Virus record (IMG/VR): IMGVR_UViG_3300017770_000097
Location: 1-30,045 of that record
Strand: one strand, 5' to 3'
From: a virus
Length of the DNA stretch: 30,045 nt
The notes under the pieces are model-generated. The model did not search any database. It saw nothing but the letters and a program-made list of their open reading frames with translations, and was not told the DNA's origin. Each line of letters begins with the position of its first letter. Positions within the stretch are counted from its first letter, which is position 1. The translations under genes were made by a program, and so were the position numbers. This document shows, piece after piece, positions 2,125 to 26,658 of this stretch.

Positions 2125-2547
2125 ATGGAAGTGGCTGAGATCTTTGCAGGTCTCAGTCACGACGAACAAATTAGAGTTGGCTGCTGCATTGTACAAGAGG
2201 GTCAGATTCTCTCTCAAGGTTGGAACGGAATGCCCTCAGGGATGGATAATAATACTCGCGACGGGGAAGGACTTACGAAACCTGAAGTAATCCATGCCGA
2301 GGCAAACGCTTTAATGAAGCTAGCTAGGAACGGAGGTCGCGCTGCAGGAGCCACCGTTTACGTTACATATAGCCCTTGCTATAGCTGCGCAGGATTACTG
2401 TTGCAAGCAGGAGTTACACGTGTAGTGTATAATAACTTATACGATAAGAAAGCAGTAAAATTCTTAAAAGAAAGAGGAGTTAAAGTTGACTGCATTAAAC
2501 CGAGTAACCGATCATCTTCGGGAAAAGATAAGGAAAGTAAATCCTAA
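2125..2547 (+). CDS. dCMP deaminase (cytidine/deoxycytidylate deaminase family)
   Basis: A zinc enzyme of 140 aa expected to convert dCMP to dUMP, feeding dTMP synthesis. The zinc and catalytic residues are present: His57-Ala-Glu59 and the Pro84-Cys85-x2-Cys88 pair. The substrate-side segment GWNGMPSG at about 32-39 matches the GYNG-P-G motif of dCMP deaminases rather than tRNA or RNA editing deaminases. The ATG at 2125 has GAGG five bases upstream (2116-2119) and gives the usual N-terminus. An in-frame TTG at 2104 and a longer open frame to 1861 exist; the longer one lies inside the primase gene and is not credible. The gene overlaps the RNA polymerase start by 62 bases. Together with NrdJ at 24.3-26.1 kb it implies phage control of dNTP supply. 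A thymidylate synthase was not seen in the window. Confidence 0.9.
   Translation: MEVAEIFAGLSHDEQIRVGCCIVQEGQILSQGWNGMPSGMDNNTRDGEGLTKPEVIHAEANALMKLARNGGRAAGATVYVTYSPCYSCAGLLLQAGVTRVVYNNLYDKKAVKFLKERGVKVDCIKPSNRSSSGKDKESKS
2475..2479 (+). promoter_or_regulatory. Shine-Dalgarno AGGAG that fixes the RNA polymerase TTG start
   Basis: AGGAG sits six bases before TTG at 2486, inside the end of the deaminase gene. It is the best ribosome site near the 5' end of the polymerase frame and supports a rare TTG start. A TTG start placed inside the upstream gene may keep polymerase synthesis low and coupled to the deaminase; that is inference. Confidence 0.6.
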
Positions 2548-4765
2548 AAATCCCAAAGCTAATTCCGGTGCTGTTCTTCTGCGGCTGCATAAAACTTGGG
2601 AAGAGGATATTGACAAGTTCGTCAGTATCTCCTTCTCAATAATCCAATTTCAATTCTCGAGGACAAGCTCTGACTCTCCAGCAGGGACGGCTAAGCTTAC
2701 AGCTACGTCTATGCTTATTGGTCAAGCAATATCTACGCGTATCCAACGAGAACCATTACCTTGGAATATGCAAGTTCGATTAGGTGATTTGTTTATTGAA
2801 GCATATAAAGTTAATAACTTAATCGAGTTATACTACCCGAAAGTACGGGATAGCTCCTACATTATATCCGCAACCTCTGATTGGGCTATTTTAGGAGACA
2901 TTCCAGAAACACGGGAACGTATAAACCTTATTGGAACCTCACGGAACCGCCCTCCCCTTATTAGGAAGTCAACCCAGTCAGTCTCTGATAGGACTATCCA
3001 TGTTGTGAAGAATAGCCAGGACGAGTTTGACATTAACAAGCCTTGGGTTAGAGCGATTAATAAATTGCAACGGACTGGGTGGAGGATTAATCGTAGAGTA
3101 TTAGATGCTCTGCTAGACAATGAAGACTTCTTCGTATCCTATAATCCCATTGAGGATAATGATGCGAAAGAACAGAAACGTAGAAGCAAATGTATTGAAT
3201 GGTATTTCATAACGGAGAAGGCTAAGAAGCTTAAAGATGCTGATGTATTCTATCAGTATTTAGAAGCGGATTATAGAAGTAGACTATATTATAGTGAACC
3301 TTTCTTAAACTTTCAAGGATCTGATTTAGCTAGAGGATTATTGAAGTTTGCGAGAGGTAAACCAATGACCGATGAAGGTCTACAATGGTTAGCTATACAC
3401 ACAGCGACTTCATTCAACATGTCCTACTCTATAGATGAAATACCAGAGTGGTGCAGCACAGACTACAAAACGTACTTAAAAGATGAAGGTCTAGATAATA
3501 TCTCAGTAGACAAAATGGTTATACAAGATAGAATCCAATGGACTAATGAATATATGGATGAGATAATGCAAGCAGGTAGAACTGCTAGTTTCTCAGAAGA
3601 CGCAGAGAAGCCGGTAGCTTTTCTCGCAACTTGTATAGAGTGGTACGATTATTCAATTGCCCGTGAGCAAAATAGAATATTCATGACCCACCTACCTATA
3701 CCGATCGATGGTTCTAATAACGGATGGCAGCACTTAGGTGCTATATCTAAAGACCCACAGACAGGTAAACTTGTTGGTCTAATACCTACAGATATTCAAC
3801 AAGACTTCTACGTGCAAACCGCAAAGGAGCTTATCAACCTCAATGAGGATGAGGAAATACAAGGTAAGCTCGACACCATGCCGATGAAGCACATCCGTAA
3901 AGGCATTAGTAAGAGAGGCTCGATGACTCGAGCATACTCAGCTGGTGCTGGTAAGATCGCAGAGAATATGTTCTTCGATTGTAAAGCAGATGACTTCCAT
4001 ATAACATACGACATCACAGAGGATAATTGCAAGAGCCTCGCAAAGACTTTGATTAGAGCGATTGATAACGTATGCCCAGGTCCATTATCTACTATGAGTT
4101 ACTTCCAAAATCTCGCTGCGTTTGAGATAGGTAAGTATGAACGCGTAGGCCCTGATGGAGAAAAGGCTGGTAAAGAATACGATACTATTAAAGCTAGGTA
4201 TAAAGAACTATACATCCAGGAAGACAAGACTGACGAAGAGTTAGACGAGTTGGATGAGCTGAAGAAGCAGCTAAATAGTTATACAAGTGTTAAGGTTTAC
4301 GGTAACGGATCAGATACACTTTCATGGGTAACACCCTCAGGATTCAAAGTCCATTACGAAAACTGGATTATGCGATCAGCTAAAACTAGAGGTAGTATTG
4401 ATGGAAAGCAGATAAAACATGTGGCGCAAGTCCCAAGTAAAATGCCGGACATAAGAGGATTTATGAGAGGTGTATCACCTAACTTCGTCCACTCACTAGA
4501 CGCAAGCCACATGGCACTCGTTATAGATGAATGGAATGAAGACTTTGGTGCAGTGCATGACTCATTCTCAACCCACGCATGTGATGTGGATAAACTCCTA
4601 TCACTAACTAAGAGCGTATTCATTAGGATGTACGATGTGGATAACTTCTACAACTACATTCAAGATCAATTAGTAACAAACCAATCAGAGTTAGATGTTG
4701 AGCAACCTACTATAGGCTCACTTGATATATCTGATATAGAGAAATCGGAGTATTTCTTTGCATGA
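2486..4765 (+). CDS. T7-like single-subunit DNA-directed RNA polymerase
   Basis: A phage RNA polymerase that would transcribe later phage genes. Family motifs are in order: D262-Y-R-S-R266 (the D-x2-G-R motif, with Gly replaced by Ser) followed by N-F-Q-G; motif A with catalytic Asp408 (PIPIDGSNNGWQHL); motif B R472-region with Lys476 and Tyr484 (KRGSMTRAY), the same eight-residue spacing as T7 Lys631/Tyr639; SPNFVHSLDASH at 664-675; and motif C His691-Asp692-Ser-Phe with the second catalytic Asp. The protein ends in Phe-Phe-Ala, like the conserved T7 FAFA foot. At 759 aa it is about 120 shorter than T7 (883), and nearly all the loss lies before Asp262, in the N-terminal promoter-binding domain. 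It starts at TTG 2486 with a good AGGAG, and its stop overlaps the next gene in ATGA. Confidence 0.95.
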   Translation: MTALNRVTDHLREKIRKVNPKNPKANSGAVLLRLHKTWEEDIDKFVSISFSIIQFQFSRTSSDSPAGTAKLTATSMLIGQAISTRIQREPLPWNMQVRLGDLFIEAYKVNNLIELYYPKVRDSSYIISATSDWAILGDIPETRERINLIGTSRNRPPLIRKSTQSVSDRTIHVVKNSQDEFDINKPWVRAINKLQRTGWRINRRVLDALLDNEDFFVSYNPIEDNDAKEQKRRSKCIEWYFITEKAKKLKDADVFYQYLEADYRSRLYYSEPFLNFQGSDLARGLLKFARGKPMTDEGLQWLAIHTATSFNMSYSIDEIPEWCSTDYKTYLKDEGLDNISVDKMVIQDRIQWTNEYMDEIMQAGRTASFSEDAEKPVAFLATCIEWYDYSIAREQNRIFMTHLPIPIDGSNNGWQHLGAISKDPQTGKLVGLIPTDIQQDFYVQTAKELINLNEDEEIQGKLDTMPMKHIRKGISKRGSMTRAYSAGAGKIAENMFFDCKADDFHITYDITEDNCKSLAKTLIRAIDNVCPGPLSTMSYFQNLAAFEIGKYERVGPDGEKAGKEYDTIKARYKELYIQEDKTDEELDELDELKKQLNSYTSVKVYGNGSDTLSWVTPSGFKVHYENWIMRSAKTRGSIDGKQIKHVAQVPSKMPDIRGFMRGVSPNFVHSLDASHMALVIDEWNEDFGAVHDSFSTHACDVDKLLSLTKSVFIRMYDVDNFYNYIQDQLVTNQSELDVEQPTIGSLDISDIEKSEYFFA

Positions 4766-5075: not shown

Positions 5076-8000
5076 TTAGTGAGCGTAATACTGATAGACT
5101 GGAACGCCTAATTCTTTTATTTTTTCTTTTAACTTCTTCTTGTTACTCTCAGTGTGAGCTATTGCTTGGTCAAATTGATTACTTAATTTACTTGCTCCAG
5201 CATCCACATCTTTACTAGATCCTAGATCATAGTGGGCTTGAGCTTGTAATATAAAATTAGTAAATACTCTAAGCTGCTCCCAAGTAGCTTCTCCTTCTGC
5301 AGGAGCGTTAGCAACATTATATCCTACATTGGACATCATAACTTTAATTTTGCTAGCAAGCTTCCAAAGTCTTGGATTGAAGCCATCTTCATCTGTATGC
5401 GAAGGAGGGATTATAAGCATTTTACTTATCTTATTAACAAAAGGTTTTTGACTAGGCTCACCTTTAGCGTTAGGCTCTAGACTAAGCATATAATCCATAA
5501 ACATTCTCTCTGTTCGAGAAAGTTTATCTTTAGGATCTCGACCTTTATTCTTTTTATTCCAAGCATTAACTGCTTTTTGAGTAGCCTCTTTAGTTTCTTT
5601 AAGATAAGACCATTCAGTAGAAGCTTTAAGCCAGTTAGCATTTACTTCTTCCAATATAGTATCATACCCATTAACATCCATCTTAAACGCATCATAAATA
5701 GTTAGCATATATGGGTTGCCACCGGAGTTGTATTTAAGTTTACTCCAGCTTTTTCCAGAAGAAGACATGGCTACAGTTGCAGCATCAAGAGATTGAACAG
5801 GAGCTGGTAAAGAACCACCATACACGTACTCTCCAGGGATATTTGTAATATTCCCGTCATCATCTGTACGAGTTCTAGCAGCAGCAGCGGTAAGTTTAGA
5901 ATCGTAATGCATAACCTTAGATACATTCCTTACTTTACCACCAGCAGCTTCTTGTAGCTTATCAAAGATAACTACATTATCTGTCTCAAAGTCTCCTGTG
6001 TTTTCATATCCACCTAGTATAAGGTCCATACCTGTATAGCTCTTAATAATTAAAGGCGAATCTATAGTCGCATGGACTATTGCAGAAGCCCGCATTAAAC
6101 GTCTAGCATTGACAGCTTCAGATGATATAACACCTACAAGAGCTGCACCGTACTTATTCATTAAAAGATCTTTAGCTACTTTGTCTTGCGACAGTTTAGA
6201 TTTCTTTATCAATCTATCTAAATTATCTGCAAAGTCTTTATCTTGTACAGCCAGTTCATCCATTAGATCAGACATAGCAAAAGCAAAGCTATTAATTTCT
6301 TTACCATAACCAAATGTCATAGTCGTCATCTTGTTTAACCCGCGATCACTATAAATCTCCCTAGCTACAAAATTAAGTTCGCCGATAAAAGCTTCTGTGT
6401 TACCATCCCAACCTTCGGTTATAGAGGATAGAGCAAGTTCTTTGAGTTGATCTCGCACATCACCTTCATCAAGAAGGTTTTCAGTGCCTAACCTAAGAAC
6501 ACCTGTTCGAAACGCAGTAGGAATATATCCCATCTGCATAGCGTTAGATGCAGTGCCATTAGTCTTACCATCGATGTAAGCGTTAATACTTGTTCTAAAG
6601 TCCTTACCTGCTTTCATCGCGTCTACATAATCCACGAAGTCAATCAACGCGTCCATATAATGTGGACCGTCTTCGCCTTTACTTTGTATAGCATCGATAA
6701 GATCCTTATCATTCGTAGGATCAAGAGCGAGAGGTTGAACTTTAGGGAATGCTGGATCAGAAAATGGTAACCCTTTCGAGATAGCTTCTGATACTGCTTC
6801 GTACTCTTCGTTCGTCATAGTTAGAACTTGCTTAAGCCTTTCACCCCATTGTTTTAGTTTTGGGGTTGCAACGGTTAAAGCGCTATCTCTAGCATCTGGT
6901 AAAAGAGAATCAGCTCCATTCATAGGTGAGCCACTAATGCTGTCGTTAAGTAATAACGTATAGATCTGTCTTAAATTACGTTCTTGTCTACTACCCTTCT
7001 TAACTACTGCAGGTGTTGCATTTTTAGTTACAAACCTAACAAGCTTAGATGTTACTGGATTGAAGTAAGTTTGCTGAGGTGTGAGGCGTCCATTAAAAGA
7101 CTGTACATTGTATGTTAGGTAATTAGCACCCTTTCTATTCTGTGCAATAGACTGTGCCTCTTGCGCAATCTTAAATCTCAACTTAGCCATATTCTCTTGT
7201 GGATCATATACACCGTTGAGTTTAATAAACTTATCTAATTCTCCTCGAGCTTCAGCTTCTTTAGCCTTTCTTTGATAACCTCTCTGCGCACCAAGAAAGT
7301 CATTCATTTTATCTTGGCCTATGCTATAGATGTCAGCCATCCAAGATGAAGATGAGTTTGTGGCAAGCACTGGTAAAAGAGTTTGATACATAATGCGTGC
7401 ACGTCTATTATCTACAACATGCGGTACTGTAGATAAATTCCTAGCAGCTTGAGCTATCTCTTTACCAAGTCTTATGTTTCCAACTCTGCCAGATATATCT
7501 TTTACTACTGTTGCACCTACATCTCCCGGTAATTTACCTTCTGGTAAAGGTATTTTAGAAGGCTGTACAATAGTTTTATTAAAGAACTTAGTACGCTCAA
7601 GAGTATTCCTCGCTAGCTTTGTTTGTCCTTCATCAGTAATACGATACGTAGCCTGCTCTTTCTCGTTGCCAGGGATAATCTCAATCATATCAGGATTATT
7701 GCGAGCCCATATTTCTTTCATAGCTTGCCCAAGAATTTCAGCTTCTTCTCTTGGTAAAGCTCTTTCAGGAATCGTAGGATCTGCAGATGCTTCACCTTTT
7801 AATCGTTGATACTCTTGGTATACCTTGTTACCGACCTTTGCATTATTCTTTGCACGAGTTACTTCAAGAGTTAACGGTTTTTGGTATTGTTCGTCAAACT
7901 TTGAGGTTTTCATTACTTCTTTTAAAGGATCTGATTCAGCTTCTTCTTCATTAAGCATAATTTCAGAAAAATCGTTTTCAACAACAAGCGCACCAACACC

Positions 8001-8639
8001 CATTAAAGCAGGATCAGCTTTATAAGAAAGCTTATCAGGCGTAAAGCCTAAATCTTCAGGTTGCTTTTCGACTACTGCTCCAAGCTTATGTAAGACTTTA
8101 CTCATTGCAGAAGTAGTTTCACCTTGAGGATCAGCTTGCACTGTAAACCCAATACCATTTTTATTATTAATAATATCAGTCGCGCGAGTCTTCATCCCAC
8201 CATCTGATTGGTTAGTTTGTAAAGGTAACGAGTTAGCATTTTGAGCTGAACTATTATATTGCCATTTATCCGGCCCGGTTTCCATGCGTTGTTTTTGTTT
8301 AAACGAAGGTATAGATTGTCTTTCTATTTCTTCTATAAAAGAACTATCAGGATTTACTATAGGTTGGGCAGGTGCAGACACAGAATCTTCTGGATTTTCA
8401 GGTGTACTTAACTGCGTCGTAGTTGGAGCTCTAACTTCCGTTGCTTGCTCTTGCTCAGATATGGCTTGCTCTTGCTCAGATATGGCTTGCTCTTGCTCTG
8501 GCATACCACGTAAGTTTTCAAGCCAAGAAGGTACAGCTTTAGCGTAATCTAATGCTGTCTCAGAGGGTAACTCTACCCCCTGAGGAATCTTCTTATCCTG
8601 TGCAGCACTAATACTACCTGCTACTGTTGCTCTAGCCAT
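5076..8639 (-). CDS. Putative virion-encapsidated single-subunit RNA polymerase (N4 vRNAP-like)
   Basis: A 1187-aa protein at the end of the late operon. Residues 1-170 are low-complexity and include three copies of an EQEQAIS repeat at about 48-66. The later part carries RNA polymerase motifs in order: S514-F-N-G-R518 followed by YFNP (the T/D-x2-G-R motif, with Ser first); motif A Asp690 in YIDGKTNG; motif B Arg766-x3-Lys770-x7-Tyr778-Gly (NKMTTMTFGYG), the same spacing as T7 R627/K631/Y639; a QSLDAA segment at 949-954 matching HSxDxS; and motif C Tyr982-Asp983-Ala-Phe. It lies beside two giant ejection-type proteins, as expected for a polymerase carried in the capsid and injected with DNA. 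N4 vRNAP is far larger (about 3500 aa). It could be a degenerate relative, but the catalytic residues are all kept. TAATG overlap and GGAG support the start. Confidence 0.8.
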   Translation of the reverse strand: MARATVAGSISAAQDKKIPQGVELPSETALDYAKAVPSWLENLRGMPEQEQAISEQEQAISEQEQATEVRAPTTTQLSTPENPEDSVSAPAQPIVNPDSSFIEEIERQSIPSFKQKQRMETGPDKWQYNSSAQNANSLPLQTNQSDGGMKTRATDIINNKNGIGFTVQADPQGETTSAMSKVLHKLGAVVEKQPEDLGFTPDKLSYKADPALMGVGALVVENDFSEIMLNEEEAESDPLKEVMKTSKFDEQYQKPLTLEVTRAKNNAKVGNKVYQEYQRLKGEASADPTIPERALPREEAEILGQAMKEIWARNNPDMIEIIPGNEKEQATYRITDEGQTKLARNTLERTKFFNKTIVQPSKIPLPEGKLPGDVGATVVKDISGRVGNIRLGKEIAQAARNLSTVPHVVDNRRARIMYQTLLPVLATNSSSSWMADIYSIGQDKMNDFLGAQRGYQRKAKEAEARGELDKFIKLNGVYDPQENMAKLRFKIAQEAQSIAQNRKGANYLTYNVQSFNGRLTPQQTYFNPVTSKLVRFVTKNATPAVVKKGSRQERNLRQIYTLLLNDSISGSPMNGADSLLPDARDSALTVATPKLKQWGERLKQVLTMTNEEYEAVSEAISKGLPFSDPAFPKVQPLALDPTNDKDLIDAIQSKGEDGPHYMDALIDFVDYVDAMKAGKDFRTSINAYIDGKTNGTASNAMQMGYIPTAFRTGVLRLGTENLLDEGDVRDQLKELALSSITEGWDGNTEAFIGELNFVAREIYSDRGLNKMTTMTFGYGKEINSFAFAMSDLMDELAVQDKDFADNLDRLIKKSKLSQDKVAKDLLMNKYGAALVGVISSEAVNARRLMRASAIVHATIDSPLIIKSYTGMDLILGGYENTGDFETDNVVIFDKLQEAAGGKVRNVSKVMHYDSKLTAAAARTRTDDDGNITNIPGEYVYGGSLPAPVQSLDAATVAMSSSGKSWSKLKYNSGGNPYMLTIYDAFKMDVNGYDTILEEVNANWLKASTEWSYLKETKEATQKAVNAWNKKNKGRDPKDKLSRTERMFMDYMLSLEPNAKGEPSQKPFVNKISKMLIIPPSHTDEDGFNPRLWKLASKIKVMMSNVGYNVANAPAEGEATWEQLRVFTNFILQAQAHYDLGSSKDVDAGASKLSNQFDQAIAHTESNKKKLKEKIKELGVPVYQYYAH
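8444..8501 (-). repeat. 21-bp tandem repeat in the virion polymerase gene
   Basis: Two identical 21-base copies (8444-8464 and 8465-8485) and most of a third encode EQEQAIS three times in the N-terminal linker of the 1187-aa protein. Exact identity between copies suggests recent slippage or duplication in a region under little constraint. Confidence 0.9.
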
Positions 8640-11600
8640 TACTGTTCTCCATTATAATTCCATCCGGAAAGATTACTTGCAAGCTTCTTATTAAGCTCTG
8701 TGAATGGACCAAGAAACGGAGTTGTCTTTAGCCCTTGATATGCTGCTCTTTCTATGTCACCTTCAATCACGCTTCCACCTACTCTACCAAGACGTTTAAC
8801 AGTGCTTAGTGCAGGTGATTCGCCAACTGATGTATTAAAGAACCACTCTCCCGCTCCATCAGAGCGTTGCTCATAGATCGGAAAGAACTGCTCTATAACT
8901 CTCTCACCAGTGCCAAGCAATCCGCTTGACATGACACCTCTTTGAATAATCTCAGCATCATCTAAGTACGGAGACTTTTGACCATACTTAATAAGGTCTT
9001 TTAAGTATTGAGATGCGAAGCCTAGCATAATCATAGTAGTCATAGTAGCAAACGCATTGTACTTCATAGCGGGAGTACCACGCTTAACGTACTCACCCCA
9101 TAACTTAGGTATATGGTTTGCTGTGAAGGTAGCCATAAAACCCTGGAATTGAGTGAAGAGAGCGAATCGAGGATCTTGGTAGATCATAGGTCTGTTAGCA
9201 GATTGTGGAAGCGCAACAGCATCATTGATGAATGTGAATGTTGCTTCACGAGTTGAGTCGTTCCAAAAGTTTAAATCCGCTTCATTCAAGACGTAACCAG
9301 AATCTAAAAGTTTAGATACTCTTACAAACTCATCTACGTCAATACCTAAATTACGCAAGGCTTCATCAGCCTCTTGCTGTTCTCTAGTTCTAGCTTCAGG
9401 ATTAACGCCACCAACATCTGCGTCGAATAGCGTTCTAGCTTTATCCACCATGTAGTCCATAGCAATAGCTGCTCGTGCTGCACGTGTAAAGTTAGTCCAC
9501 CCTGTTAGACCAGTGGCTTTAAAGAATAGTTCATATGCCCGCTGTGATAATTGATTAGTCTCTGTAACGCCTGTCACAGTAGCTGCACCAACATCCCACT
9601 CATAAAACCCTAATTCTTGTAGTCTTTCTTGGCCAGAAGTTAAAGCTCTTTCTTTTGCACCAGTAGCTACATCAGTAATAGAGCCTGCTCCTTGCCACAT
9701 AGCTTTAGCAAACTCTTCTCCCATGGTTTTTAAACTTCCATTCTTACCGAAGATTTGGTCGCTTGTTAAAGCTTTATGCACTAACGCGGCTTCAACAATT
9801 GAAGACACAGTTGCAAGAGGAAGTCCTGCTAGAGTAGTAAGCATCATAAAACTTCTTTGTATTCTCTGCAAGGCTTTACCTTGAGCTGATGTAGGACGTT
9901 TATAGTTTCCTGATTCAGCATCTAAGTAATCCTTCATTCGTGAAGCAACTTTGTTAACTTCCTCAGGAGATACACCCTCACTCACCATATCATCGAGAAG
10001 TTTATTAACTACTTCTCCATTCTTACCTATATATTTTCTATGAGCTACGTACCGTGCGGCTGACTTCGCTGCAGTTGAAACATTAGCAAACATATCTTGA
10101 TCCATATAGTCTTTAAATGCTTCTCTCTCTGAAAGACGTAGAGTTCTACGCCTATGCGCTGCAGGCACAATACCTCCATTCGTAACAGAGAATGCTTCAT
10201 CAACGTCAGACACTTGAGGATTATCTAGTATTTCGTCTACTAACTTCTTAGCATCTGCATACGTCATCCTATTATTAGGATCATTTGCAAATTCATCTAC
10301 TAAAGCCTGTTGAAATCCAGCTCTGTCTTTCCTAACCGCAGTTTTGTTTAAAGCCTTATACTTAAATAGGTAATTAGAAACTACGCCTAGCTCAGGGTTG
10401 TATTTCCTTTGGTCCCTATGCATATCAGCAGCAAGCTTATTCAGCTCCGCACCTAACTGGCGTATGACATCAGCATTCGGGCCTGTAACTCTATCAGGTT
10501 GAAACACTCCATTAACAACAGCAGCATTAAGCCTGTTATAAATATCTTGACTGATCTGCCCACGCTTCTTCCTATTCAACCATCTAGCATTGCCAGATAG
10601 CGTACGGTATACATCATCAGGTCTAGATATAGTATTCTTATACTTAGCTAGTATATGTTGCTTTGCGCTTTCAAAGCTTGATCCACTAAACGTTCTCTGC
10701 AATCCACCACCAAACATGTCGGCAAGTATTCTTGCAGATCTTGATCTAGCTTTTAACTCAGGTGTGAAGATATTACGAGTAGCGCCTTGCCATAGTTGAG
10801 ATACATTTAAAGCATTCTCTTTAAACACATCCCAAGTTGTACGTTCTCTATTGGATAACCTATGTTGATCTGATCTATCATTAAATGATGGGCCTGTAGT
10901 AGAAGGTCTATTAAAGATTTCTTCTGCTATCTCCTCAACAGATTGTATCCTCCCATTCTGACGCCTCTCCCAATCAGCCCACATACCAGCATCTGATGCA
11001 GTGGAGTTATCAGCATCATCTAACCTGTAAGCTAGATCAGCCCAAGCTCCCGTATTGTAGACAGCTCCAGGCACAGACATAGCACCACCTAGAGATCCGC
11101 CTGCGACAGCACCAGAGATCATCCGGTTATTAAGATCACCGAAGTCAAAGCCTTCTTGTAGGTGTGCTGCTGTGTAGCCTATAGCTTCTTGCAAAGCTTC
11201 AGTACCAGCCTCAGACGCTCCACCTAATCCAACGCGCGTAGATAAATCTTTAAACACTTGCTTCTTAGCGATTTGCTGTTTAGCAATATCTCTAACATTA
11301 CCTACTAATGCTGCAGCTTCTCTGCGAGTAGCCTCAAGAACACGGGCTTGAGCCATGCGTCTTGGTACACCCTGCCGGACAAGTTCTTCTGTGGCTTGTC
11401 TTATAACCTGCTTTGGTTTACCTGCTGCTACAATCCCCTTTAAACCGAGACGGTCTAATGCTGCTTGCATAACACCAGCACCGATTGCAACACCAGCATT
11501 TTTATTTTCTCCTTCCATCTCATTCCACACTTGCCCAGTGTAGAGCGAAACAGGGAGAAGCATAGAAGTACCATATGTAAATGGAGCTCCTAACGCGCCA

Positions 11601-12508
11601 ATAGCAGTACCAACCATGTATGGAATAGATAACGCTAAGTTATTGCCGAGATAATCAAACGCTTCTCCCGCGCTATCAACATCTCTAAAATCTAAAGTAG
11701 TTTCCCCGTAGGAACCAAGAAGATCACGCTGACGCTTCACTCCCTCCTCACCAATGTCGGCTAACCAATCAGACCCAGTAGTTTCTCCCATCATATTCAT
11801 GATGCCGTAGCTAGATTCCATAACACTAATCCAACCTTGCTCCCAAGAATCTGAGAAGGGGTTTAGTGATTGGTTATTTATATCCCTATCTAAGTGGTCT
11901 ATTTGTGTATTGCTATGGGAAAAGTAATTACCAAGACCAGAGCGCTTTGCATTTGCAAGTTGCTGCTCGTTCAATGCAGTCTGTTTAAATCCTAAAGACT
12001 TTGCACCTTCTTGTAAGGCACCATCTTCAATCATCTGTCTCGCAGTATCCCACTCATCCTTCGCAACGCCTACCTCAGCGTCACGCTCTCTTGAGTTCTG
12101 ACCAAGAGCCGCACGAGTCATATCCATACTAGAAGCATATTTAGTAGGCTCAAATATACCTTCTTTCAATACACGGTTTACAAATGAATCTCCTGCATCA
12201 TCTGTTAGATCAACGATAGGCCTACCAAACTGGCCAACCATAGGTTTACCATCTTCACCTATAACCGGTTTGATATTTGTATAACCTCGATCGCGTGCTA
12301 GCCTAGCGATAGATTCCGTAGCTACTTGTCCACCAGCTTCACCAGGTTTATACTGGTTATCGAATAGTTTTGAAACTTCAGGAGCATCAAACCCCTGAAG
12401 CCTATATAGATTACCTTCATTATCCTGAACAGTATCCGCGTCAATAAAATTTAAACGATCGTTAAGGCTCGTATCTGGACGATTTTGTATGTTATCTAAC
12501 CAACCCAT
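8639..12508 (-). CDS. Giant ejection-type virion protein with N-terminal SNase-like nuclease domain
   Basis: A 1289-aa protein. Residues about 18-120 match the staphylococcal nuclease fold: FIDADTV with Asp23/Asp25, Arg36, the D41-A-P-E44 motif and FGRPIVDL with Arg96, then GDSFVNRVLKEGIF like the SNase helix after the active site. These correspond to SNase Asp21, Arg35, Asp40, Glu43 and Arg87, so it should be active and Ca-dependent. Residues 290-325 are hydrophobic, as are an Ala/Gly-rich stretch near 425-480 and segments in the C-terminal part (around SFMMLTTLAGLPLATVSS and ATMTTMIMLGFASQYL). The long helical body fits internal virion proteins that cross the envelope with DNA, as T7 gp15/gp16 do. 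It sits between the transglycosylase giant and the virion polymerase. AAGGAG precedes the ATG. The nuclease call is firm; the virion role is inferred from position. Confidence 0.8.
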   Translation of the reverse strand: MGWLDNIQNRPDTSLNDRLNFIDADTVQDNEGNLYRLQGFDAPEVSKLFDNQYKPGEAGGQVATESIARLARDRGYTNIKPVIGEDGKPMVGQFGRPIVDLTDDAGDSFVNRVLKEGIFEPTKYASSMDMTRAALGQNSRERDAEVGVAKDEWDTARQMIEDGALQEGAKSLGFKQTALNEQQLANAKRSGLGNYFSHSNTQIDHLDRDINNQSLNPFSDSWEQGWISVMESSYGIMNMMGETTGSDWLADIGEEGVKRQRDLLGSYGETTLDFRDVDSAGEAFDYLGNNLALSIPYMVGTAIGALGAPFTYGTSMLLPVSLYTGQVWNEMEGENKNAGVAIGAGVMQAALDRLGLKGIVAAGKPKQVIRQATEELVRQGVPRRMAQARVLEATRREAAALVGNVRDIAKQQIAKKQVFKDLSTRVGLGGASEAGTEALQEAIGYTAAHLQEGFDFGDLNNRMISGAVAGGSLGGAMSVPGAVYNTGAWADLAYRLDDADNSTASDAGMWADWERRQNGRIQSVEEIAEEIFNRPSTTGPSFNDRSDQHRLSNRERTTWDVFKENALNVSQLWQGATRNIFTPELKARSRSARILADMFGGGLQRTFSGSSFESAKQHILAKYKNTISRPDDVYRTLSGNARWLNRKKRGQISQDIYNRLNAAVVNGVFQPDRVTGPNADVIRQLGAELNKLAADMHRDQRKYNPELGVVSNYLFKYKALNKTAVRKDRAGFQQALVDEFANDPNNRMTYADAKKLVDEILDNPQVSDVDEAFSVTNGGIVPAAHRRRTLRLSEREAFKDYMDQDMFANVSTAAKSAARYVAHRKYIGKNGEVVNKLLDDMVSEGVSPEEVNKVASRMKDYLDAESGNYKRPTSAQGKALQRIQRSFMMLTTLAGLPLATVSSIVEAALVHKALTSDQIFGKNGSLKTMGEEFAKAMWQGAGSITDVATGAKERALTSGQERLQELGFYEWDVGAATVTGVTETNQLSQRAYELFFKATGLTGWTNFTRAARAAIAMDYMVDKARTLFDADVGGVNPEARTREQQEADEALRNLGIDVDEFVRVSKLLDSGYVLNEADLNFWNDSTREATFTFINDAVALPQSANRPMIYQDPRFALFTQFQGFMATFTANHIPKLWGEYVKRGTPAMKYNAFATMTTMIMLGFASQYLKDLIKYGQKSPYLDDAEIIQRGVMSSGLLGTGERVIEQFFPIYEQRSDGAGEWFFNTSVGESPALSTVKRLGRVGGSVIEGDIERAAYQGLKTTPFLGPFTELNKKLASNLSGWNYNGEQ

Positions 12509-12528: not shown

Positions 12529-15500
12529 TTATTTTGCACTATTGATTTGCTCTTTTAAGAATTTAAAGAACGGTGTTTCAGTATTAGATGGTGTGTACTT
12601 AGACTGTTCTTCTTGACTTAGTTTTTCCCATTCAATTAATATTGAGTCAACAATCTGTACATCTGTTACGTTCTCAGCAGAACCACTACTTGTGACAATA
12701 CGTTTAGCAGTGGTGAGGGCTTCACTTATCTTCTCAGCACTCATCCGCTCACCCGCATTATCTCCTTCAGTGAGAGTAAATATACCTCTCCCAGTAGACA
12801 TTGCAGTAACGTACTGTGCTTGTAGATAAGGCTTAAGGCTTTGGCCCGCTTTACCACCATCTTTAACATCTCTCAATAAATCATTGTAAGCGTTACGGAT
12901 AATAGTAGGCATATAGGTTTCATCCACATTATTATCAATAGCCCATTTAGCAATATCTCCACCTACAACTTCAGGTGTTAATTGGGTTATTGTCCTATCA
13001 CTATCTTCGATACCAGCAAGATCCCTTTGAAGACCTTTAATTTGGTTAGCATAGTTTTTGCCTGCCTTTTGAACTGCTTCTCTATATTCAGGAGTTCTTG
13101 GTTGAAGCGCTGGATTATCATTCCAATATCCAGGAATTCTTTCACCAGTTTTAGCATTAACCCAGATGTTTTGATTAGTTCCTACGTTTACTTTCATAGC
13201 TCTAATACGTTGACCACTAGGGCTAAACACTGCTTTATATTCCCCTGTGCCTTCGCGCATAGCTTGCTTTGGAACTAGGTCTTCTAAGTTTTTACTTTTA
13301 CTATACGCCTTAATCGATGCAGTAGTATGGTCGCCTTCTTCCATTAACTCTTTGACATACTTACTATGTGCATCTCCACGAGATAGATAGTCTTTACCAG
13401 CAAACGCAAGTGCCTGCCCAGGTGTTGCACCAGTTAACATAGCACCAACAAATAGAACAGCTGCACGTTTCAACTCATCCGCTGTGAAGAGGTCTCCAAA
13501 GAATCCTTTAATAGCAGACATAGCTTTGGATTCTTCAGCTGGATTTTCAGCAATAACTGCAGCACCTTTACTTGCTGCTTCATCATTACTTATATTAGAA
13601 GCTGGACCTTCACCCTCATCAACTTCTGCAACTTTACTTCTAACAGTTGCTTCACGTTGACTAGAGTCTTGCGCCTGCTCAACAGTTTGACGTTGGTCAG
13701 GACCGCGAGGATCGTCAAAGTCTACTGTAGCATTCACATCAACCACATCTGCAAGAGCTAATGCATCTAATGTTTCAGGACTACTAGGATCCATAAGAGC
13801 TAACTCATGAGTTGATGGGATTACAGTTCCGTCTAACGTAGGAACATTTTCAGGACCTAACTCAGCAATAACTCCAGGCGATAAAGCGCCAAGGTGATCT
13901 GCTTCTGCGTATATACCAGGTCCTAGGTTTCCTATATCAGGCCTAGAATCATGTATACCCGGCGCCGTTAAATCAGTATAACCTAAGTTGCGCTGATCTT
14001 CAATGATAGGGTCTACAACATTTACTAAATCGTTGCGTCTCCTAATTTCATCTGAAGCAGTTTCATCTCCATCATCTGATAGTGTAATCAAAGCATCTTC
14101 GCTTAGTTGAGAGTAATTAATAGGTGAAGGCTGTGGTGGAACTGGAGGGGCTTGCGCTACAAGTCCCGATTCAATAGGCCTATCATTAGCATAACTAGGA
14201 TGAGCTGCAGCTTTTTGATGTAGCACATTGTTAAACGCTTCAATACGTCTAGGATCTCCTTCAGGAAACTGACGAGCATACTCTCTTAGCTGTGCATTAT
14301 GCTTTAGTCTATTTGCTTCTGCAATATCTTCCCTTTGCTCAACAATTTGAGATGAAGTATTCAGCAATGCCTCATCACTCATTGGTGCCGGTGCAGTATC
14401 CACAACTATTGGCTCTGCATCTACCGTAGGATTAGGCATAGTCGGAATGTTAAGCGGTGAGGGTGGGACCATTGTGTTAGATGTAGGTTGAACTACATTG
14501 TCTTGACCTGGACGTACAGGCATATTAGAAGTTAAGTCAAAAGTAAAGGGAGCAGGATTAGGATTTACGCGAGGTACTCTATCCTCATTAATAGTAGGCG
14601 CATTGCCAGTGTGACGAGGATCACTAGGTCCTACCCATATGTAACTTTGCGTAGCAGAATCCCATACCTTCTTCTTTCCTCCAGCTCTACCGCCGGGATT
14701 TAAATGTTGCACAGGACCTCCTTGGTTAAACACCATTCCACCTACGTACTGGCTAGGGCCTCTACGATAAAGATCGCGTTGCAAATCCTCAGCTACGGAG
14801 GGAACTGCCTGCATTTCAAATTGACGAGGCATTAAGTAATTATACGTGCTAACAGCAGCGTCCCTAAAATAATCGCTCCAAGAAAAGCCATCATCTGCAT
14901 CTTCAGCAGGTACCTCCCCTGTAGGATTTTTAATCTGTAAAGGCCGAACGTTTGTTTCAGGTCCTAAATAGATTTCATTACGTAACTGGGGATTAGACTC
15001 TTCCTTAATAGTTCCAGGAGGACTATAGCTGGGATTAGGAATAAGCTCTTGTTGCGGTGCAAAGTCAGGAATAAACACACCAGCATCAGGGTACCCTTGC
15101 ACAGGCACTTCTAACATAGGAGAAGGCTGTACTTGTTGAGGTACTTGCGGCATCACAACAGGTTGTTCTTGCTGCGGAAGTGTAGGTGTTTGATCCACCT
15201 GTACTTCTTGAGGTATTCCTACAGAAGTAGGTCTTGATTTAGGATTTATGGATGTTTCTACTGCTCCTGTTTCATTTGTGGTTATGATAGGAGGTAAGTA
15301 ATGATCCATACCTTTATCCATCCAATCTGGAAATAATGCCTTCGCTCTATCTAAATGAGTTATATTTCCAGCGTCTTCGTACATTGTATTTAATTTTTGA
15401 GAAACAGTGCCGGGCATACCGCCTGCAAACTCATCTGTCTTACCATGTGCTTTAGGTCCAACTCCACCAGCATTTATAGAAGAGTATAGGTCAAGAGCTC

Positions 15501-16068
15501 CATGTTCTCCTGGCTTAAATCCTCTAGCTAAAGAGTGTTTAACAATCGCACCAGGAACCCAGTTACCATCTTCACCCATGTATCCTAATTGCGACCTTAA
15601 AGATGAGTTTTTAGTATTGAACTCAACATCAAACTCATCTGCTATAGAACCTTTTGCAACCGATCCATCTTTACTTCCTGTTCCAAACTGAATAAGCCCT
15701 TTGTGCATTCCGTGTTTAGTCACTGGACCTTTTCTCAAAGGATCAAATGTTCCGGCTGTTTCGTAAGATATAACAGTAGCTAAATCTAAAGGAGATATTT
15801 TAAGTATTTTTGCGGTTTCAATTATACCTTCTTGCAAGTCATAAGGTTTGAATTTATCTGGTCTTGCTTTAGGCCTTAGAGATGAACCACCAGTATTTAA
15901 AGAGAGTACTCCCATATTCCCCTCCGCGCGTGCAGCCAAACCATTCTCATTCATTTGTTCGATGATAGGACCGTACATCTCCGTAGCTTCCTTATTGAGG
16001 ACGTACTCCCCTGGGGTGAGCATCGCGGGGACGCTATCCCTATTTGTTGGATCAGTAAGATCTTTCAT
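12529..16068 (-). CDS. Giant internal virion protein with lytic-transglycosylase-like domain
   Basis: An 1179-aa protein. It opens with SVPAMLTPGEYVLN (12-25), a segment common in phage tail-measure and ejection proteins. Residues about 75-250 look like a lysozyme-fold lytic transglycosylase: a helix ending in Ser-Tyr-Glu103 as candidate catalytic acid (ISYETAGTFDP), then GLIQFG at 124-129 and a second helical part. Such domains open peptidoglycan locally during DNA entry (T7 gp16 is the model). A long linker rich in Pro and Gln follows (about 290-660), and a hydrophobic stretch (AAVLFVGAMLTGATPG) lies in the last third. It precedes the nuclease giant and the virion polymerase in one operon. 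A good AAGGGAG lies seven bases before the ATG. The domain could instead be a related muramidase type. Confidence 0.78.
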   Translation of the reverse strand: MKDLTDPTNRDSVPAMLTPGEYVLNKEATEMYGPIIEQMNENGLAARAEGNMGVLSLNTGGSSLRPKARPDKFKPYDLQEGIIETAKILKISPLDLATVISYETAGTFDPLRKGPVTKHGMHKGLIQFGTGSKDGSVAKGSIADEFDVEFNTKNSSLRSQLGYMGEDGNWVPGAIVKHSLARGFKPGEHGALDLYSSINAGGVGPKAHGKTDEFAGGMPGTVSQKLNTMYEDAGNITHLDRAKALFPDWMDKGMDHYLPPIITTNETGAVETSINPKSRPTSVGIPQEVQVDQTPTLPQQEQPVVMPQVPQQVQPSPMLEVPVQGYPDAGVFIPDFAPQQELIPNPSYSPPGTIKEESNPQLRNEIYLGPETNVRPLQIKNPTGEVPAEDADDGFSWSDYFRDAAVSTYNYLMPRQFEMQAVPSVAEDLQRDLYRRGPSQYVGGMVFNQGGPVQHLNPGGRAGGKKKVWDSATQSYIWVGPSDPRHTGNAPTINEDRVPRVNPNPAPFTFDLTSNMPVRPGQDNVVQPTSNTMVPPSPLNIPTMPNPTVDAEPIVVDTAPAPMSDEALLNTSSQIVEQREDIAEANRLKHNAQLREYARQFPEGDPRRIEAFNNVLHQKAAAHPSYANDRPIESGLVAQAPPVPPQPSPINYSQLSEDALITLSDDGDETASDEIRRRNDLVNVVDPIIEDQRNLGYTDLTAPGIHDSRPDIGNLGPGIYAEADHLGALSPGVIAELGPENVPTLDGTVIPSTHELALMDPSSPETLDALALADVVDVNATVDFDDPRGPDQRQTVEQAQDSSQREATVRSKVAEVDEGEGPASNISNDEAASKGAAVIAENPAEESKAMSAIKGFFGDLFTADELKRAAVLFVGAMLTGATPGQALAFAGKDYLSRGDAHSKYVKELMEEGDHTTASIKAYSKSKNLEDLVPKQAMREGTGEYKAVFSPSGQRIRAMKVNVGTNQNIWVNAKTGERIPGYWNDNPALQPRTPEYREAVQKAGKNYANQIKGLQRDLAGIEDSDRTITQLTPEVVGGDIAKWAIDNNVDETYMPTIIRNAYNDLLRDVKDGGKAGQSLKPYLQAQYVTAMSTGRGIFTLTEGDNAGERMSAEKISEALTTAKRIVTSSGSAENVTDVQIVDSILIEWEKLSQEEQSKYTPSNTETPFFKFLKEQINSAK

Positions 16069-23903: not shown

Positions 23904-24317
23904 TTAAGTCTCCTTCATTTTGTTTACGAGGATCTTTTCTAGTTTCTTTTCTTCTGGACGACGTGCACGTAACCCTAAGTATCCAGTTAGAATCCATACA
24001 ACTCCAGCTACAACACCTAATCCAATTAAATGCTGTGTGAAGTTAGACCACATAAATGCTAACATTTCCCAAAAGTTCAACTCACCATCAGCTCCAGAAA
24101 AATCTTGTGGAGAGCTAGGCGGAGTTGTTACAACATCTGTTACAACACCCGCGGCTACTCCTACAGTCGCACCCACTATTGGTCCACCCGCCGCCGTGCC
24201 TATAACAGTCGCAGCACTCGAGCCCATCGTCGACATTATCCCATCTTTCGATAAATTGCCTAAGCACGCTGTAAGGGTCGTCATTAACAGTATACATATA
24301 CTTATCCTATAAATCAT
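23904..24317 (-). CDS. Lipoprotein with C-terminal membrane span (candidate unimolecular spanin)
   Basis: A 137-residue protein starting at ATG 24317 (TGATG overlap with the NrdJ stop). Residues 1-18 form a lipoprotein signal with lipobox L15-T-A-C18. Next is a Gly/Ala stretch at 34-59 with GxxxG spacing (ATVIGTAAGGPIVGATVGVAAGVV), then a short soluble part (60-96), one strong membrane span at about 97-116 (HLIGLGVVAGVVWILTGYLGL) and a Lys/Arg-rich tail. An outer-membrane lipid anchor plus an inner-membrane span in one chain is the architecture of unimolecular spanins such as T1 gp11 (131 aa), which join the two membranes at lysis. The Gly-zipper stretch also resembles outer-membrane lipoproteins, so this role is a hypothesis. 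A GTG at 24326 is a less likely start. Confidence 0.75.
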   Translation of the reverse strand: MIYRISICILLMTTLTACLGNLSKDGIMSTMGSSAATVIGTAAGGPIVGATVGVAAGVVTDVVTTPPSSPQDFSGADGELNFWEMLAFMWSNFTQHLIGLGVVAGVVWILTGYLGLRARRPEEKKLEKILVNKMKET

Positions 24318-26068
24318 CAAGCACACTCTTTAATTCCTGTGACGGGATCAAAGAAGCAAGCTTCCGCTTTATTCTCCTCCGTTCCACCCGTCGTTGCAGT
24401 GATTTCAGTCGCGCCCTCTGTCTCCTCTTCCTTTTCCACGGTTTGTTCAATGGTGTTGAGAATACCGTACCGCTTTCCCGCGGCGCGGAATGTTGTGACA
24501 CCTTTACAACCGTTCTTCCAAGCTTCCAAGTAGACATCTTTAAATTCTTCATACGTAACATCATCTCCCACGTTACAAGTTTTAGACACAGCACTATCGA
24601 TGTAATGTTGTGCTAAGGCTAATACGGCGAGATGTTCTCTAACGGTAATTTCATTTGACGTACGTCCGCTGACTCCTCTTGTGTAAGCATAGTCCTCAAC
24701 GCGCTCAAAGCGTGGTCCGTTAGCAGTTTGGATGGTACGCTCATAGTAATGTGAAAAGACTGGTTCGATTCCTCCGCTGATGTTATCTGCCACCAGTGAT
24801 ATGGTGCCTGTTGGAGCAATTGAGGTAAGGTGTGAATTTCTGATACCATACTCTTTAATTCCCTTTCGTAGTTTGTATGGAAGAGTTTTTGCAAAGCCTG
24901 ATTTAAGCCAGCTCGATCTATATAGAGGGAATGCACCTTTCTCTTTTGCAAGTTCTAATGAGGCACGGTATGTAGCGTTACGGAGGGTTTTGAATACCTC
25001 TTCTGCCCATTCGAGGAATGATTCACTACCATAATTATGTCCTAACATTTCACCTGCGTTAGCTAATCCAGAGATTCCAAGTCCCATTCGTCTCTTATTC
25101 TTAGCTTCATCCTCCTGTTCTTTAAGTGGGTAGATTGTTCTATCAATAACATTATCCATTGCGCGGACAATGTGAGGTATATCATTATCAAACTGTTTCC
25201 AATTGAAAGTCTCACCATCAACATACTTAGTTAAGTTGAAACTTCCAAGCAAGCATGCCCCGTAAGGTGGAAGAGGCTGCTCACCACAAGGATTAGTGGC
25301 TGCAATGCTTTCACAATACCATAGGTTGTTTGATTCGTTAATTCTATCGATGAAGATAATACCTGGTTCCGCCCAGTCCCAAGTGCTTTCCATAATCATA
25401 TCCCAGATTTCAGTAGCACTTTCCTGTCCCCACACTTCACCTTCAAATATTAGATCATAAGGAGCGTCATTCTCTACTGCTTCCATAAACTTATCGGTTA
25501 CGGCAACACTAACATTAAACCCAGTAAGCTTATCAGAATTACGTTTAGCAGTAATGAACTCTTTAATATCCGGGTGGTCCACACGTAAAACCCCCATCTG
25601 CGCACCCCGTCGATGTCCTGAACTCGAGATGGTTTGGCAAACAGCGTCAAATATGCCCATAAAAGATACGGGCCCAGACGCTGAGGAATCAAGGGATTTA
25701 ATCTTACTCCCCGATGGACGCAGTTGTGAAAAATCATAACCAATACCTCCGCCTCGACGCATAGTCTCTGCTGCTTCTCCAGCTCGTTGCATAATAGTAT
25801 CCATGCTATCATCAATCGTACCACTTACAAAACAGTTGTACGCTGTTGTAATACGACGTGAACCAATAGCTGATTGTACTCGTCCAGCTGGTAGGAATCT
25901 CATCTCACCTAAAATACTTTCTAAGTATTCCTTATGTTGGTCATCATCACATAAAGCTCCAGCGATACGTATAACCTTATCATGGAAGGTTTCGTCTGCT
26001 TGTCTATACTTCATTTGATCGATTTCTTGAGAGATGGTTAGTTCAGGGCCTTGGTATGCGTTCTTCAT
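24317..26068 (-). CDS. nrdJ: Class II (adenosylcobalamin-dependent) ribonucleotide reductase
   Basis: A 583-aa enzyme reducing ribonucleotides to deoxyribonucleotides. The first redox cysteine is Cys79 (YNCFV). The radical site is N259-P-C261-G-E263, and the partner is Cys272 (GACLLGSFNL), eleven residues after Cys261 as in class II enzymes. SIAPTGTIS lies at 416-424, RRGAQMG at 153-159, and a C-terminal pair Cys571/Cys582 could shuttle electrons. The pair is ten residues apart rather than the usual tight CxxC, and a Thr/Glu-rich linker precedes it. Oxygen-independent class II enzymes need B12, so the host must make or import it. The ATG 26068 follows GAGGA; GTG 26083 is a poorer start. The gene sits between a coiled-coil membrane protein and the lysis-type genes inside the late block. 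Confidence 0.93.
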   Translation of the reverse strand: MKNAYQGPELTISQEIDQMKYRQADETFHDKVIRIAGALCDDDQHKEYLESILGEMRFLPAGRVQSAIGSRRITTAYNCFVSGTIDDSMDTIMQRAGEAAETMRRGGGIGYDFSQLRPSGSKIKSLDSSASGPVSFMGIFDAVCQTISSSGHRRGAQMGVLRVDHPDIKEFITAKRNSDKLTGFNVSVAVTDKFMEAVENDAPYDLIFEGEVWGQESATEIWDMIMESTWDWAEPGIIFIDRINESNNLWYCESIAATNPCGEQPLPPYGACLLGSFNLTKYVDGETFNWKQFDNDIPHIVRAMDNVIDRTIYPLKEQEDEAKNKRRMGLGISGLANAGEMLGHNYGSESFLEWAEEVFKTLRNATYRASLELAKEKGAFPLYRSSWLKSGFAKTLPYKLRKGIKEYGIRNSHLTSIAPTGTISLVADNISGGIEPVFSHYYERTIQTANGPRFERVEDYAYTRGVSGRTSNEITVREHLAVLALAQHYIDSAVSKTCNVGDDVTYEEFKDVYLEAWKNGCKGVTTFRAAGKRYGILNTIEQTVEKEEETEGATEITATTGGTEENKAEACFFDPVTGIKECA

Positions 26069-26090
26069 ATTTGTTGTCCTCACTGGGCTT

Positions 26091-26628: not shown

Positions 26629-26643
26629 TCCCTACTAAAGGGA
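26629..26643. promoter_or_regulatory. Small palindromic hairpin in the late-operon gap (candidate phage promoter)
   Basis: TCCCT and AGGGA pair as a five-bp stem around a five-base loop, in the only gap of more than 50 bases inside the late block. On the + strand ACTAAAGGGA (26634-26643) is identical to the T3 promoter from -6 to +4. On the - strand the same element reads TAGTAGGGAG, close to the T7 start region. N4 virion polymerase promoters are also small hairpins. It lacks a U-tract, so it is a poor terminator. The match may be chance. Confidence 0.3.
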
Positions 26644-26658
26644 CTTATACTCATATAT

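Follow-up and report, generated by a model that had tools for sequence, protein, structure and literature searches.

A compact protein, very likely of the N4 virion RNA polymerase type, encoded beside a T7-like RNA polymerase in a phage contig

Introduction

Phage N4 pairs its virion RNA polymerase (vRNAP, gp50) with a T7-family enzyme, RNAPII (gp15/gp16) (PMC4496689), and the combination of a vRNAP with a T7-family RNA polymerase (RNAP) is thus already known. In the N4 enzyme, K437 and R440 hold the initiating nucleotide (PMC4496689). One paper treats the vRNAP as unique to the Schitoviridae (PMC12633501) and another calls it characteristic of that group (PMC7650795); the reference N4-type vRNAPs are 2,842-3,820 aa long (PMC10654107). 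The largest survey of N4-like viruses dropped vRNAP-like candidates of less than 2,500 aa (PMC10654107), a cut-off that would hide a compact family. In the papers searched, what comes nearest to such a family is a 2270-aa protein of phage StenR_269 (OR838459), proposed as a vRNAP on the basis of its size, its helix content and its lack of cysteine (PMC10747016).

Here we describe P0001, a 1187-aa protein encoded by a 30,045-nucleotide stretch of DNA from a short-tailed marine phage (IMG/VR record IMGVR_UViG_3300017770_000097; the whole stretch is called the window below). Homology, predicted fold and conserved catalytic residues make it very likely that P0001 is a single-subunit RNAP of the N4 virion-polymerase type, its enzymatic activity being inferred. 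An initial annotation had considered a genome carrying both polymerase types to be not well described; that claim failed, as N4 has gp50 as well as gp15/gp16 (PMC4496689).

Results

The initial annotation had recognized P0001 as a polymerase candidate by an ordered set of motifs, and its open reading frame and every residue it cited were present as claimed: SFNGR at residues 514-518, FNP at 526-528, IDGKTNG containing D690, R766/K770/Y778, and QSLDAA followed by IYDAF containing D983. The interval given there, 5691-7100, is the span of the motifs only, while the whole gene covers 5076-8639 (Table 1). The ordered motif set was found in none of 20,000 shuffles of the P0001 sequence, with a pattern that was composed after the motifs had been seen. 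As a single sequence, P0001 had no match in Pfam, PHROGs, NCBIfam, the PDB or 50,697 phage records, and so one sequence alone cannot decide its identity. A 21-bp tandem repeat, in frame and encoding EQEQAIS, occupies residues 49-69 (window ~8432-8495) of the disordered N-terminus.

Table 1. Positions of P0001, its motifs and neighboring features. Coordinates are those of the window, except for the remote homologues, which lie on other contigs.
Feature	Position	Strand	Basis or remark
T7-like RNA polymerase P0005, 759 aa, 7 Cys, TTG start	2486..4765	+	Pfam PF00940 1e-57; 36.5% identical to CRP-7 gp30
P0001, compact vRNAP-type single-subunit RNA polymerase (very likely), 1187 aa, 0 Cys	5076..8639	-	HHalign, Foldseek, family conservation
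P0001 N1000 (N4 N968)	5640..5642	-	N in 35/37 family members and 13/13 Schitoviridae; R/K/Q in T7-type enzymes
P0001 motif C block, residues 949-985	5685..5795	-	D952, D983 = N4 D929, D951
P0001 motif B, residues 766-780	6300..6344	-	R766, K770, Y778 = N4 R666, K670, Y678
P0001 motif A, residues 688-695	6555..6578	-	D690 = N4 D559; Y688 at N4 E557
P0001 GR motif and following block, residues 514-535	7035..7100	-	R518, K532, R535 = N4 R424, K437, R440
P0001 N-terminal 161 residues, low-confidence, probably disordered, with in-frame repeat EQEQAIS	8157..8639	-	AlphaFold2 pLDDT <50 for residues 1-161
P0002, putative ejection/internal virion protein, 1289 aa, no Cys, SNase-like N-terminus	8639..12508	-	PHROG 6958; PaP3 ORF19 relative
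P0003, large late protein, probable internal virion protein, 1179 aa, no Cys	12529..16068	-	Position, composition, weak PHROG matches
Candidate phage promoter, 16 bp, GTATAAGTCCCTTTAG	26635..26650	-	5 identical copies in the complete sibling (57.6 kb); chance ~0 in window
Remote homologue at the same locus, L081	5543-9271		
Remote homologue at the same locus, L083	4266-7994		
Remote homologue at the same locus, L085	4223-7549		

By iterative profile search of marine contigs reached through RNAPs resembling P0005, we assembled a family of 37 non-redundant P0001 homologues, which are 14-36% identical to P0001. Across these 37 sequences R518, D690, G713, R729, G779, G936 and D983 are invariant, and K532, R535, Y778, D952 and N1000 are among the nearly invariant columns; K532 and R535 are each kept as K or R in 35 members. 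Position 770 is Lys in 27 members and Arg in 10, and the equivalent of N4 E557 is Glu in only 13/37, being Tyr (Y688) in P0001. That R518, D690, G779 and D983 do not vary at such low identity implies that catalysis has been under selection in the main family, P0001 among its members, an inference from sequence conservation without biochemistry. When family members were scanned singly, three matched PHROG 2206, virion RNA polymerase (best 3.9e-11), six matched PHROG 414, RNA polymerase (best 4.7e-8), and three matched Pfam RNA_pol (0.0013).

Aligned by HHalign with an RNAP-domain profile built from the vRNAPs of 13 diverse Schitoviridae, the family profile matched at 99.5% (E 9.6e-23) over 708 columns, with the following pairs in register: R518/R424, K532/K437, R535/R440, D690/D559, R766/R666, K770/K670, Y778/Y678, D952/D929, D983/D951 and N1000/N968. 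Six column-shuffled profiles and a reversed profile, used as controls, scored approximately 0, as did profiles of the N4 N-terminal and C-terminal regions against the family. The match to the lone N4 gp50 sequence was weak (2.7%), the 13-member profile being required. A weaker match linked the family to the T7-like RNAPs that these phages also encode (97.3%, E 2.7e-11), and hmmsearch with the family HMM retrieved T7-like RNAPs from the same contigs (E to 1.8e-5).

An AlphaFold2 model of P0001 (pTM 0.70, core pLDDT >90) gave 69 Foldseek matches in the PDB at E<=0.001; 50 of these were identified, every one as a T7, mitochondrial or N4 (mini-vRNAP) RNAP (E 1e-14 to 1e-11). A fold search in a viral structure library agreed with this result. 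TM-scores were modest (0.34-0.57) and the overall rmsd was large, in line with the disordered N-terminus of the model. By this prediction, the right-hand fold of the single-subunit RNAPs is present in P0001. The initial annotation had named the absence of a right-hand palm as grounds for refutation, and the predicted fold did not refute it; whether the catalytic residues cluster in space, which it had also raised, was judged only through the structural matches, with no coordinates measured. Its polymerase assignment and its proposed affinity to the N4 vRNAP held, on the profile comparison with controls, the PHROG matches and the predicted fold. That P0001 is encapsidated, as it had further proposed, is not shown and rests only on gene position and lack of cysteine.

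Comparison with N4 gp50 (mini-vRNAP 998-2103) indicates the same catalytic domain, in which the motif residues correspond one for one, including K437/R440 and N968; the TxxGR/DxxGR, A, B and C motifs follow one another in the expected order, with the catalytic Asp/Asp/Lys/Tyr present. Both proteins lack cysteine, and both are encoded by the last gene of a late operon, converging on the replication genes and beside ejection genes. They differ in that P0001 has 1.2 kaa, against ~3.0-3.8 kaa for Schitoviridae vRNAPs, and no detectable N4 N- or C-terminal region; in the family, the residue equivalent to E557 (ExDGxxxG) is mostly lost. The phage genome is of 58 kb and has a one-chain T7-like RNAP in place of the heterodimeric RNAPII. 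The T7-type RNAPs (T7 gp1, P0005 and CRP-7 gp30) are alike in fold and catalytic core, but the family lies outside the T7 clade, is cysteine-poor, has its gene in the structural operon and carries Lys at position 532, as in N4, where 36/37 T7-type enzymes have Asp. Like K532, N1000 is common to the family and N4, and not to T7-type enzymes. P0001 has no Pfam match to PF00940-type RNAPs and does not group with T7, SP6 or phiKMV.

We built an unrooted tree from 387 columns of 37 family, 13 N4-type and 37 T7-type sequences, the last comprising the co-resident RNAPs, T7, SP6, phiKMV and three more phage RNAPs (two Pelagibacter, one Agrobacterium). It consists of three clean clades, in which the co-resident RNAPs fall with T7, SP6 and phiKMV to the exclusion of the family (branch support 1.0), which rules out a recent duplication of P0005 as the origin of P0001. 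The family forms a separate deep branch, and, with the root unresolved, sisterhood to N4 cannot be shown from the tree. As the tree is unrooted and E557 is not kept in P0001, we describe its membership as vRNAP-type, a separate deep lineage, and not as a Schitoviridae vRNAP.

The genomic neighborhood also resembles that of N4. A sibling contig of 57,568 bp, 99.8-99.9% identical to the window, looks complete, as suggested by its 123-bp terminal repeat. Its early and replication genes form a single rightward operon with P0005 as the last gene, and its structural genes a single leftward operon closed by P0001, the same layout as in N4, where the vRNAP gene ends the late operon and is convergent on the replication operon. 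A ribonucleotide reductase (588 aa, barrel domain 1.3e-117) is encoded within the late operon (window 24317-26083). Of 49 loci at which the sequence runs on for at least 2.5 kb past the RNAP, 46 had the family gene, 256-842 bp from the RNAP gene. In all 46 clear cases it is convergent to the T7-like RNAP gene and adjoins a gene for a cysteine-free putative ejection protein. Each of the other three loci has a remote homologue (98.4%, E 1e-14) in the form of a cysteine-free ORF of the same size, one of the three being truncated at the edge of its contig. All three retain an intact motif B, and the motif A and C aspartates are clear by pattern only in L081; L083 and L085 are possibly inactive or strongly diverged. 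Scanning bacterial and archaeal genomes with the RNAP gave no match, and no host is therefore inferred.

Cysteine occurs at 0.13 per 1000 residues in the family, with at most one per member, versus 18.2 in the co-encoded RNAPs, and is absent from all 13 N4-type vRNAPs. P0002, P0003 and other structural proteins of the same phage are likewise cysteine-free, and thus lack of cysteine here marks virion-type proteins, not polymerases. Of 26 relatives of P0002, 22 match PHROG 6958, virion structural protein, and P0002 relatives also match PaP3 ORF19, annotated as "constituent protein." P0002 also has a moderate HHalign match to the N4 gp50 N-terminal region (85%, E 6e-6, 118 columns). A correspondence of P0002 to the N4 C-terminal region was considered and rejected for want of structural support, the C-terminal half of P0002 having no PDB fold match. 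The N-terminus of P0002 (window ~12130-12460) resembles a staphylococcal nuclease domain, with the motif IDGDT...G.DA.E; PF00565 is matched in 4/26 members (best 5.5e-6).

The only isolate found to carry a family member is Roseobacter phage CRP-7, for which podovirus morphology and hosts have been described (PMC6918029) and whose record is unclassified Caudoviricetes; of the seven Schitoviridae hallmark genes, the present analysis covers the vRNAP alone. Its gp33 (QBQ72826, 1235 aa) is annotated "hypothetical protein." CRP-7 is syntenic with the window, having the RNAP followed by gp33, gp34 and gp35 on the opposite strand; gp30 is the closest relative of P0005, and gp34 is recognizable as a relative of P0002. 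BLASTP found no match between gp33 and P0001, and gp33 joins the family by profile (E ~1e-243 to 1e-254, with gp33 itself in the profile). It is the orthologous gene at the same place, with K766/R770 where P0001 has R766/K770. The putative vRNAP of StenR_269 is likewise large, cysteine-free and in a similar late position, at 2270 aa against 1187 aa. The family profile had no match in the whole StenR_269 record; at that sensitivity it also missed N4's own vRNAP, and the StenR_269 proposal is therefore not excluded.

Interpretation and alternatives

The best explanation of the data as a whole, which we consider likely by analogy with N4, is that P0001 is an active vRNAP-type polymerase, cut down to the catalytic domain, that is packaged, ejected and used for early transcription. 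The data establish homology and fold, the conservation of the catalytic residues, the order of the genes and the absence of cysteine, while activity, packaging, ejection, an early role and promoter use are inferred for P0001, without proteomics or biochemistry. In this model, P0001 would be a late product, its gene closing the structural operon; it would enter the particle together with P0002 and P0003, the large ejection proteins, and be ejected with the DNA into the host. It would then transcribe the rightward early operon, which includes P0005, and P0005 would take over from phage promoters, probably GTATAAGTCCCTTTAG. Several points stand against this explanation: the Tyr at N4 E557, the Arg at 770 in 10 members, the lack of an N4-like hairpin in a simple scan of the sibling early region, the unrooted tree and the two remote homologues without clear aspartates.

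The alternative that survives best, which we regard as unlikely, is that P0001 is a genuine but unpackaged polymerase, a second intracellular RNAP made late for a subset of genes. Virion proteomics is absent, and a place in the late operon predicts late expression whether or not the protein is packaged. Against this, P0001 shares its near-total lack of cysteine with the N4 vRNAPs and the neighboring large late proteins, unlike the cytoplasmic enzymes of the same phage, and its gene lies beside that of a putative ejection protein, as N4 gp50 lies beside gp51/gp52. It is very unlikely that P0001 derives from a vRNAP but is no longer catalytic, working as an ejection protein with a purely structural role, such as in DNA entry. 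In L083 and L085, two of the three remote homologues, the aspartates of motifs A and C are not clear by pattern, and K770 is Arg in 10/37 sequences; on the other hand, R518, D690, G779 and D983 are invariant across 37 sequences at 14-36% identity. Less likely still is that P0001 arose by duplication of the T7-like RNAP in its own genome, then diverged, and is not a relative of the vRNAPs. The family does match T7-like RNAPs (E 2.7e-11), but the match to the N4 vRNAPs is far stronger (E 1e-22), K532 and N1000 are common to N4 only, and T7, SP6 and phiKMV form a cluster with the co-resident RNAPs that leaves the family out. Coincidental motifs in a tape-measure or coiled internal protein, consistent with the lack of any match to the single P0001 sequence in Pfam, PHROGs, the PDB or phages, are all but excluded by the profile, PHROG and fold evidence with its negative controls, the fold match already contradicting them.

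We regard four features as new: the bare 1.2-kaa form without the N- and C-terminal thirds of N4; the one-chain T7-type RNAP as its partner; its occurrence in phages not assigned to the Schitoviridae; and the fact that it recurs in marine contigs yet carries only a hypothetical annotation in the sole isolate found. A natural vRNAP of 1.2 kaa would mean that such a polymerase can do without fusion to the large end regions of N4, which bears on packaging and on passage through the narrow tail. As CRP-7 is an isolate with a cultured host, a compact vRNAP is testable now, and the family offers a small, cysteine-poor polymerase for biochemistry. A bolder reading is that these phages form a widespread marine podovirus lineage with a two-polymerase cascade, largely free of host RNAP, in which a packaged bare vRNAP would serve the early genes and a one-chain T7-type RNAP would follow, and that the split arrangement, with separate polymerase and ejection protein, could be ancestral to the giant fused polymerase of N4. 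Taken as a whole, this reading is somewhat less likely than not.

Candidate promoters

The best candidate for a P0005 promoter is GTATAAGTCCCTTTAG, its use being inferred. The five copies in the sibling are at promoter-like places, three of them clearly intergenic, and the intergenic sites include those ahead of the late operon and ahead of the ribonucleotide reductase genes. N4-type vRNAPs start transcription from hairpin promoters in single-stranded DNA. For P0001, a simple scan of the sibling early region for N4-like, short-loop, GC-rich hairpins of at least 7 bp found none that was convincing. In the sibling, pyrimidine content over 80 nt reaches its genome-wide maximum (72/80) just upstream of the first early gene (~35381-35480, reversed G001 coordinates), and an AT-rich 8-bp hairpin comes directly after this stretch.
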